Source: Salinilacihabitans rarus (GTDB lineage Archaea > Halobacteriota > Halobacteria > Halobacteriales > Natrialbaceae). From it: a stretch of DNA of 64,000 nucleotides. Every line of letters begins with the position of its first letter. Position 1 is the first letter of the stretch. The position numbers were made by a program, and so were the translations under genes. Below, piece after piece: positions 34,066-36,370 of the stretch. A model generated the notes under the pieces. It was not told where the DNA came from. It did not search any database and saw only the letters and a list, made by a program, of their open reading frames with translations. Location of the stretch: NCBI RefSeq assembly GCF_024296665.1, contig NZ_CP100762.1:2480001-2544000 (forward strand), read 5' to 3'.

Positions 34066-34311
34066 ATGGCACAGGGGACCTGCGACGGCTGTGGACGAGC
34101 CGTCACGGCCGCCGGCGGCGTCGCCAACCTCTGGACGTTCGGCGACCGCGACGGCAGCGAGGGCACCGGCATGACCCTCGAGTTCGAGGACGGCTCGACG
34201 CACCTGCTCTGTTACCCGTGTATCGACGCGCTGCCGGACGGGCCGACGGCCGCGGACGTCGAGCGACTGGAGCGGGTCGACGGGGAGACGTCGCGGCTCG
34301 TCGGCCCCTAA
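34066..34311 (+). CDS. Small zinc-finger protein
   Basis: An 81-residue protein with two cysteine pairs: CDGCGRAV at residues 6-13 and LCYPCIDAL at about 47-55, spaced as a single zinc site. Between them is a beta-rich, acidic section (MTLEFEDGSTH). I do not recognise a named function; small proteins like this are common in haloarchaea. Its stop abuts the 3' end of the tRNA-like gene on the other strand. Confidence 0.7.
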   Translation: MAQGTCDGCGRAVTAAGGVANLWTFGDRDGSEGTGMTLEFEDGSTHLLCYPCIDALPDGPTAADVERLERVDGETSRLVGP

Positions 34312-34314
34312 AAG

Positions 34315-34399
34315 CGGAAGGGGTGGGATTCGAACGCCACGAGGCCCGAAGGCCTCCGCGGGCGAGGCCCGCGGTGCTCTTCCGCTGAGCGACCCTTCC
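34315..34399 (-). tRNA. tRNA-like gene with abnormal anticodon arm (identity uncertain)
   Basis: Read on the minus strand, an 85-nt cloverleaf can be drawn: acceptor GGAAGGG/CCCTTCC (7 bp), U8, D-arm GCTC-AGCGGAA-GAGC with A14, G18 and G19, T-loop TTCGAAT, discriminator G and a TTTT tract just after. The T-stem pairs fully only if one C is bulged. The anticodon arm is a very GC-rich hairpin (CCGCGGGC, CTC, GCCCGCGG) of 19 nt with no U33; the central triplet is CTC (formally Glu). A long variable arm GGCC-TTCG-GGCC follows. It may be an unusual, intron-disturbed or decayed tRNA. Confidence 0.55.
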
Positions 34400-34561
34400 G
34401 CACGCGGGGGCGACGGCGGAGTTCGTATTCGTAATCTGGTCGCTACCGACCGCTAGGGGTCGGTTTCACCGCCGCCGGCGCCGGGTGTCGCCCCGGCCGT
34501 CGCCCTCGCGGCGGGAGACGCTTCGCAGACTTTAGGGCGCCGCCGGACGCTCACCCGAACG

Positions 34562-36370
34562 GTGAACCCCGAGCGGATCTTCGAGGCGTTTCCGGCGCCC
34601 AGCTACCGCGGCAACCAGGAACGGGCCCTCCGTGACGTCCGCGACGCGTTCGCGGCCGGCAACGACGTGGTGCTGGTACGTGCGCCGACCGGCAGCGGCA
34701 AGTCCCTGCTCGCGCGGGCGGTCGCCGGCTGTGCCCGGCGGGTCGACGAGGCCGACCCGAGCGAGGCGACCGGCGCCTACTACACGACGCCGCAGGTCTC
34801 GCAACTGGACGACGTCGCCGCCGACGACCTGCTCGCGGACCTCAACGTCGTCCGCGGGAAGTCGAACTACACCTGCATCCTGCCGGGGGAACTCGACACG
34901 CCGGTCGATCGGGCCCCCTGCGTCCGCGAGCGCGGCTACGACTGCTCCGTGCGCCACCGCTGTCCGTACTTCTCGGACCGGGCGATCGCCTCGAACCGGT
35001 CGATCGCGGCGATGACGCTCGCGTACTTCATGCAGACCGCCGGCAGCGAGGTGTTCCGCAAGCGCGACGTCGTCGTGATCGACGAGGCCCACGGGCTGGC
35101 GGAGTGGGCCGAGATGTACGCGACGATCCGACTGGGGCCGCGGACGGTGCCGTTCTGGGACGACCTGCGGGTCCCCGCGGTCGACGGCCTCGACCGGGCC
35201 GCGCGCTTCGCGGAGAACCTCGCCGGGGTCTGCGAGCGCCGCAAGGACGACCTGCTCGGCCGGGAGGAACTCTCCCCGCGGGAGGTACGCGAGCGCGACC
35301 GCCTCCAGGAACTGCGCGGCGACCTCGACTGGTTCGTCTCGGACTACCGCGACCCGGAGAGCCCGACGACGTGGCTGGTCGATCAGGCCGACCCCGCCGA
35401 CGCCGACGACGAGGACGTCGGCGGGCCGCTGACGATCAAGCCGATGAACCCCGAGCGCTACCTCGCGCACACGGTCTGGGACCGCGGGAACAGGTTCGCC
35501 CTGCTGTCGGCGACGATTCTCAACAAGGAGGCGTTCTGCCGGCACGTCGGCCTCGACCCCGCGAACGTCGCCCTCGTCGACGTCGGCCACACCTTCCCCG
35601 TCGAGCGCCGGCCGCTGTACGACGTCACCCGGGGGAAGATGACCTACGAGGCCCGCGACGAGACGCTGCCGAAGGTCGCCCGAACGATCGTCCGGATCAT
35701 GCAGGCCCACCCCGACGAGAAGGGGCTGATCCACGCCCACTCCTACGACATCCAGGAACGACTGGCGGAGTACCTCCGGGAGTTCGGCGTCGGCGAGCGC
35801 GTCCGCACCCACTCGCGGGACGGCCGGGACGCCGACCTCGAGGCGTGGAAGGCGAGCGGCGACCCGGACGTCTTCCTCTCGGTGAAGATGGAGGAGGCGC
35901 TGGATCTGAAGGGGGACCTCTGTCGGTGGCAGGTGCTGTGCAAGGCGCCCTTCCTCAACACGAGCGACTCGCGGGTCGCCCACCGTCTGGAGCAGGGCCA
36001 GTGGGCGTGGTACTACCGGGCGGCGCTGCGGACGGTCGTCCAGGCCTGCGGGCGGGTCGTCCGCGCGCCCGACGACCGCGGGGCGACGTACCTCGCGGAT
36101 TCGAGCCTGCTCGACCTGTTCGAGCGGGCGAGAACCGACATGCCCGACTGGTTCGCCGATCAGGTCGACCGCATGGAGCGCCCGGACCTGCCGGCGTTCG
36201 AGCCGCGGACGGCGCTCGGAGGGCCGAACGAGGGGTCGGGTCGCGACGGCGGTGACGCGGCCGCGGACGGGGACGGGGACGAGGGGTCGTACTCCTCGCG
36301 GCGTCGGCGACGGGCGCGACGGTCGTCGCGGTCGAGTCCGCTGGCGGACGTCTGGGAGACGGACCGGTAG
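34562..36370 (+). CDS. XPD/DinG-like superfamily 2 DNA helicase
   Basis: A 602-residue ATP-dependent helicase. Walker A is RAPTGSGKSLLA (about 39-50), Walker B is VVVIDEAHGL (about 162-171, DEAH box), and four cysteines between them (TCILPG, APCVRE, YDCSVRHRCPYF, about 103-139) match the Fe-S cluster of the XPD/Rad3/DinG group. The C-terminal motif VVQACGRVVRAPDDRG (motif VI, about 497) completes the helicase core; a Ser/Arg-rich tail follows. Probable repair role. The start is GTG at 34562, just before MNPERIFEAFPAPSYR. Confidence 0.92.
   Translation: MNPERIFEAFPAPSYRGNQERALRDVRDAFAAGNDVVLVRAPTGSGKSLLARAVAGCARRVDEADPSEATGAYYTTPQVSQLDDVAADDLLADLNVVRGKSNYTCILPGELDTPVDRAPCVRERGYDCSVRHRCPYFSDRAIASNRSIAAMTLAYFMQTAGSEVFRKRDVVVIDEAHGLAEWAEMYATIRLGPRTVPFWDDLRVPAVDGLDRAARFAENLAGVCERRKDDLLGREELSPREVRERDRLQELRGDLDWFVSDYRDPESPTTWLVDQADPADADDEDVGGPLTIKPMNPERYLAHTVWDRGNRFALLSATILNKEAFCRHVGLDPANVALVDVGHTFPVERRPLYDVTRGKMTYEARDETLPKVARTIVRIMQAHPDEKGLIHAHSYDIQERLAEYLREFGVGERVRTHSRDGRDADLEAWKASGDPDVFLSVKMEEALDLKGDLCRWQVLCKAPFLNTSDSRVAHRLEQGQWAWYYRAALRTVVQACGRVVRAPDDRGATYLADSSLLDLFERARTDMPDWFADQVDRMERPDLPAFEPRTALGGPNEGSGRDGGDAAADGDGDEGSYSSRRRRRARRSSRSSPLADVWETDR

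Follow-up and report, generated by a model that had tools for sequence, protein, structure and literature searches.

Can a gene that has the acceptor stem and the elbow of a tRNA, and a GC-rich hairpin in the place of its anticodon arm, be a tRNA, and if it is not, what might its RNA do? The question is raised by an 85-nt element on the minus strand (positions 34315 to 34399) of the 64,000-nt stretch of Salinilacihabitans rarus DNA analyzed here, referred to below as the window. The preliminary description of this locus had left three readings side by side, namely, a decayed tRNA, a tRNA with a misread intron, and a tRNA-shaped RNA with a non-decoding role.

Anatomy and fold of the element

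Read on the minus strand from 34399 to 34315, the element begins with the 5' strand of an acceptor stem (GGAAGGG, 34393 to 34399), which pairs with CCCTTCC at 34316 to 34322, and continues after TC with a D-arm (GCTC-AGCGGAA-GAGC, 34376 to 34390) carrying the equivalents of A14, G15, and G18G19. A single A connects the D-arm to the GC hairpin that replaces the anticodon arm (CCGCGGG-CCTCG-CCCGCGG, 34356 to 34374), which has neither a 7-nt loop nor U33. Next come an extra (variable) arm (AGGCC-TTCG-GGCCT, 34342 to 34355), a C, and a T-arm (GTGGcG-TTCGAAT-CCCAC, 34323 to 34340) with a one-nucleotide bulge, the C at 34336. The 85 nt include the discriminator G (34315); the 3' CCA is not encoded. 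The sequence CTTTT follows directly on the minus strand, and its T-run (34310 to 34313), which may serve as a terminator, shares bases with the stop codon of a convergent zinc-finger-like gene.

The preliminary description had listed a canonical acceptor stem, U8, A14, G18G19, the TTCGAAT T-loop, and a trailing T-run, together with a GC hairpin of 19 nt that stands where the anticodon arm should be and has no U33, an extra arm capped by UUCG, and a single bulged C in the T-stem, and all of these could be confirmed from the sequence. The element thus has the 7-bp acceptor stem of a canonical tRNA as well as its D-loop/T-loop elbow nucleotides, and RNA folding returned a cloverleaf of −48.6 kcal/mol (z = −3.1, with 2 of 200 shuffles equally good).

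Tests against known tRNA classes

ARAGORN called the element “tRNA-Glu(ctc),” the sole tRNA called in the window. It might be an ordinary tRNA-Glu(CTC) or a tRNA whose intron is noncanonical, but both explanations are very improbable. A standard tRNA-Glu(CTC) is present elsewhere in the genome (L107), and the tRNA set is complete without the element, which is therefore not needed for decoding. On relatives, ARAGORN gave unrelated labels or missed the element, such that copies are annotated inconsistently (Glu, Lys, Arg, Gly, Gln, or undetermined) or overlooked, and a comparison of the acceptor stem with those of the genome's tRNAs, made to assign an amino acid, found no clear nearest isotype. 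A lenient test for an anticodon arm with a 7-nt loop and U33 was passed by all 43 ordinary tRNAs of the genome versus only 4 of 119 distinct copies of the element, the latter being chance matches; the terminal loops of the anticodon-replacing hairpin in these copies are mostly 3 to 6 nt. An intron-bearing archaeal tRNA was also rejected, as the arms range from about 15 nt to more than 50 nt in relatives with no constant anticodon arm inside, and no constant loop is left after removal of any insert. In the element itself, the arm is only 2 nt longer than normal, and no segment can be excised to leave a 7-nt loop with U33, which speaks against the misread intron considered earlier.

Covariance models also set the element apart. 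The only Infernal match was to tRNA-Sec (RF01852) and was subthreshold (28.4 bits versus a cutoff of 47). No RF00005 match was found by cmscan of the element region, and a search of the S. rarus genome with RF00005 at an E value of 0.1, which 42 ordinary tRNAs pass, did not report the element; no Rfam 15 family matches it above threshold. Allo-tRNAs have 8/4 or 9/3 acceptor/T stems plus an anticodon, and this class was rejected because the element has a 7-bp acceptor stem and a 5-bp T-stem with one bulged base. A tmRNA, which combines a tRNA-like domain with a tag-coding region, was rejected as well, with none reported by ARAGORN and with copies of the element being 78 to 125 nt long (119 distinct copies), and a search for a virus-borne tRNA with two core patterns gave no match in viral contigs.

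Conservation and covariation

A first homologue search with a 90-nt query returned matches in most genomes of the same family, and two models, R1 and R2, separate the element from ordinary tRNAs. The homologues in other haloarchaea that the preliminary description had proposed searching for do exist, and they keep the fold. The acceptor stem is identical in 30 of 30 rows of alignment A1 and in 30 of 30 rows of alignment A2, with no variation in either strand, and in the 30 homologues of A1, the D-arm and T-arm are nearly invariant and the anticodon-equivalent and extra arms are variable. Species differ in the length and sequence of the anticodon-equivalent hairpin, and its pairs covary; the extra arm covaries too, and its hairpin is gone in several SDH-type relatives. 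On the structure given above, nine pairs changed on both sides, compared with 2.9 in shuffles; most of the nine lie in the anticodon-equivalent arm. A second group of 15 copies, mainly from families f17 and f7 and including Haladaptatus, showed six such pairs versus 1.9 in shuffles; two of its members are shared with the first alignment. A chance tRNA-like fold is ruled out by this conservation and covariation. Decay fares no better, given that the core is almost unchanged in 119 distinct copies and that compensatory changes have kept the variable arms paired. Judging from these comparisons of sequence, the element is the product of neither chance nor decay.

The T-stem deserves separate mention. 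Its 5' strand is one base longer than its 3' strand (6 nt versus 5 nt) in every row of A1 and A2, both of which were built without the core pattern that collected the 119 copies; that pattern demanded the asymmetry, and the 119 copies are therefore no independent count of the bulge. The 5' strand reads GTGGCG in Natrialbaceae and GCGTGG or GTGTGG in other families, and 41 of the 43 ordinary tRNAs of the genome have an unbulged 5-bp T-stem. The discriminator base is G in 101 of the 119 copies, A in 17, and C in 1, and this inconstancy argues against one fixed synthetase.

Distribution and genomic context

In a class scan of 391 genomes, the element was found in 90 of 101 genomes of the same family (Natrialbaceae) and in roughly 100 genomes of other families, at E values of about 1e-9 or better. 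It is present in about half of the sampled haloarchaea, including Natrinema, Natronococcus, Natrialba, Halopiger, Haladaptatus, Halorientalis, and Halegenticoccus, and many families and genera are without it. Among 16 genomes checked closely, members scored 61 to 84 bits and ordinary tRNAs at most 48, and there was one copy in each genome except G393, which has two; across all carriers, the element is nearly always single copy. A spread beyond the order was considered and rejected: the matches of a phylum-wide scan scored 51 to 58 bits, and the one inspected, at L247, proved to be a standard tRNA-Ser(TGA).

Two genomes of genus g6 (G302 and G251) have a second full copy with a near-identical core at another site (L145, 5718 to 5807, and L147, 5340 to 5429), and one of these copies has a gene for a FemX-like GNAT protein about 220 bp downstream in convergent orientation. 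A related 85-nt tRNA-like gene was observed in genus g68 (L163, 6148 to 6232); its acceptor sequence is GAAAGGG, its T-stem has no bulge, and its anticodon hairpin is short and lacks U33.

In the window, the element is flanked by a divergent gene encoding a helicase with DEAD_2 and Helicase_C_2 domains (Pfam; 34562 to 36370, plus strand) and a convergent gene encoding a small CxxC (zinc-finger-like) protein (34068 to 34311, plus strand; synteny cluster c18), for which a Pfam search gave no match. Context genes were named by eye from sequence, except for those tested against Pfam. The helicase gene is a conserved synteny marker in Natrialbaceae and not part of the RNA, and the CxxC gene likewise serves as a synteny marker only. 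A position between the two genes, which the preliminary description had proposed looking for in other haloarchaea, holds in Natrialbaceae; it does not hold in most other families and in two Natrialbaceae genera, in which the element lies downstream of sdhCDBA on the same strand, and elsewhere other genes adjoin it. Copies in f17 and f7 also occur near sugar or polysaccharide genes. Such a change of neighbors between families suggests that the RNA acts in trans.

Promoter box and probable transcription unit

A TATA-like promoter box, GATTACGAATACGAA, lies at 34423 to 34437 on the minus strand, about −38 to −24 relative to the RNA. The Natrialbaceae box GATTACAAATACGAA occupies this position (−38 to −24) and is conserved in 65 copies of the same type, and an AT peak is found at equal distance upstream in 53 copies of other families. 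Behind the element, only the first 3 positions are conserved, and there is no conservation beyond about +10. As a conserved TATA-like box at about −30 should place the start of the primary transcript at or near the mature 5' end, we infer that the element is probably its own transcription unit, starting near that end.

This arrangement bears on the possibility that the element is a processing signal of the t-element type, at which RNase P or tRNase Z would cut the tRNA-like fold and thereby set the end of a neighboring RNA. Haloarchaea offer a precedent in the t-element upstream of 5S rRNA (PMC4326828), the S. rarus genome has a T-arm-like element directly upstream of its 5S rRNA, and many families have the element downstream of sdhCDBA in the same orientation. 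Set against these points are the element's own promoter box about 30 bp upstream, the lack of conserved downstream sequence, the divergent upstream neighbor in Natrialbaceae, which leaves no same-strand gene to process, and the existence of reduced forms without the tRNA fold. We consider such a signal unlikely. The element is also not the 5S t-element itself, as the 5S rRNA gene lies at 2622926 to 2623047, about 108 kb away.

Two features of the downstream region were seen in some genomes. The sequence GTGGCTCACGCG is conserved 25 to 55 bp downstream of the element, chiefly in genera g5, g20, and g28 (L252, L253, L255, L256, L258, and L259); it was dismissed as a general downstream motif because it is present only in some genera. 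At two loci (L265, 642 to 972, minus strand, and L029, 1501 to 1800), the full element is followed by tandem partial copies of its 3' end (GGTTCGA..TCCCGCCCC.TCCG), which are spaced roughly 115 to 160 bp apart and are each bordered by an inverted half of the T-arm; these copies resemble either small palindromic inserts or old duplications of attachment sites.

Reduction and loss

Eleven genomes of the same family have no full member. In seven of these, the same promoter stands beside the helicase gene and is followed by a shortened hairpin of 36 to 80 nt in which the GGAAGGG/CCCTTCC terminal stem is wholly or largely intact, and in one such hairpin the stem has changed on both sides in a compensatory manner (GGAAGGA/TCCTTCC). 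One genus accounts for five of the seven, which therefore probably represent three independent cases rather than seven. In the remaining four genomes, no element was found at either site; such complete loss in some species indicates that the RNA is dispensable. The reduced hairpins indicate that retention of the elbow is not universal, and among the sequences compared, the terminal stem is the most persistent part of the RNA. At one locus (L257, 3646 to 4230), two copies of the promoter box GATTACGAATA stand about 565 bp from each other, and only the second precedes a reduced, 36-nt hairpin; the doubling is possibly the result of an insertion.

Loss and shrinkage in some species, along with the absent anticodon, would be expected of a decaying, functionless tRNA pseudogene. 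However, the strict conservation and covariation in two groups, the conserved promoter, and the survival of the terminal stem even where the element has shrunk, in one case with a compensatory change, make that explanation highly improbable.

Possible roles outside translation

We hypothesize, with a probability of about 60%, that the element is a gene in its own right, encoding a conserved small RNA of haloarchaea that is tRNA-like, does not decode, and serves as a tRNA mimic in trans. This is in line with the third reading of the preliminary description, and the sequence evidence supports it. By sequence, the RNA keeps an intact acceptor stem and the D-loop/T-loop elbow of an L-shaped tRNA, and a rigid GC hairpin free to vary in length takes the place of the anticodon arm. 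Such an RNA could not act in the ribosome, and proteins that recognize the acceptor end and elbow of tRNAs would bind it in trans. Its complete loss in some species and the reduced hairpins weigh against this explanation. We hold this general reading, a non-decoding tRNA mimic, firmly, and any mechanism by which it might serve as a donor only loosely.

Among specific mechanisms, we tentatively rank first one in which the RNA receives CCA, is charged, and donates its amino acid outside translation. In this mechanism, the T-stem bulge would weaken EF-1A binding and the missing anticodon would bar the RNA from decoding. A more elaborate and still more speculative form is that a dedicated tRNA, having evolved away from decoding, is charged via its acceptor stem, is kept from EF-1A by the T-stem bulge and from the ribosome by the missing anticodon, and donates its amino acid to cell-surface glycans or lipids via FemX-like GNAT transferases. 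If true, this would be, to our knowledge, the first known anticodon-less donor tRNA in Archaea.

According to a review (PMC4052509), T-stem pairs including 49-65 and 51-63 govern the affinity of EF-Tu, tRNAs that bind it weakly may supply non-ribosomal reactions in Staphylococcus, and the acceptor-arm pair G2-C71 is read by FemX. In the element, G2-C71 does not vary, and the T-stem bulge immediately follows pair 51-63. Genes for FemX-like GNAT proteins lie near three copies of the element and are commoner among carrier genomes (16 of 22 versus 6 of 22; Fisher P = 0.006 with no correction for phylogeny). A close FemX-like gene is absent from six carrier genomes, and the association fails inside genera g7 and g10; it is suggestive but confounded by phylogeny and genome content. 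The variable discriminator base also counts against charging by one fixed synthetase.

Almost as likely as the donor mechanism, and equally tentative, is that the RNA stays uncharged and regulates or titrates tRNA-binding enzymes, such as RNase P, tRNase Z, the CCA-adding enzyme, modification enzymes, or a synthetase. The conserved parts are the elbow and the acceptor stem, the discriminator base varies, and the acceptor-stem hairpin survives where the cloverleaf is lost. An uncharged mimic would also need no linked partner gene, which fits the differing genomic contexts. On the other hand, this role would leave the conserved T-stem bulge without a reason, and many haloarchaea possess the same enzymes without the element.

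If the tRNA mimic reading is right, the fixed T-stem bulge and the free anticodon arm would split the parts of a tRNA that serve extraribosomal recognition from those that serve decoding. The presence of the element in Natrinema, Haladaptatus, and Halorientalis makes it testable.

Comparison with known tRNA-like RNAs

Among ordinary tRNAs, the haloarchaeal tRNA-Ser(TGA) scores best with model R1 (53 bits) and has a similar extra arm (GGC...GCC-TC) and mostly G73, but the element differs from it in its tRNA-Ala-like D-arm, its acceptor stem, its bulged T-stem, and the lack of an anticodon. A long extra arm and G73 are also shared with tRNA-Sec, yet the element has no UCA anticodon and lacks the 9/4 acceptor/T architecture, having a 7/5 arrangement plus bulge instead of a 13-bp acceptor/T stack.

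A t-element upstream of haloarchaeal 5S rRNA was reportedly described by Hoelzle in 2008 and 2012. A T-arm-like element observed directly upstream of the 5S rRNA in the genome studied (L251, 1448 to 1500) resembles that of Haloferax volcanii. The haloarchaeal t-element is tRNA-like and is cut by tRNase Z (PMC4326828); it shares this fold with our element, but it is part of the 5S precursor and acts as a cleavage signal, whereas the element is a separate gene without a conserved neighboring RNA.

Certain non-proteinogenic tRNA-Gly isoacceptors of Staphylococcus aureus are believed to be excluded from translation by weak EF-Tu binding and to act as aminoacyl donors (PMC4052509). They provide a working analogy only, as the element, unlike them, has no anticodon and its charging is hypothetical.

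The closest anatomical analogues are the human mascRNA and menRNA, from vertebrate MALAT1 and MEN-beta, which are L-shaped tRNA mimics with a canonical T-loop, a GG elbow, a long anticodon-equivalent stem, and a compact loop, and which do not decode (PMC11693755). The kept elbow, the long anticodon-equivalent stem, and the compact loop are common to these RNAs and the haloarchaeal RNA. However, RNase P releases mascRNA and menRNA from long RNAs, and their D-arms are reduced, whereas the haloarchaeal RNA has its own TATA-like promoter box at about −30, which argues against such a release, and a full D-arm, often with an extra arm, as well as the T-stem bulge. If it is indeed a stand-alone, vertically inherited, non-decoding tRNA-shaped RNA, it would represent an archaeal branch among the few known tRNA mimics.
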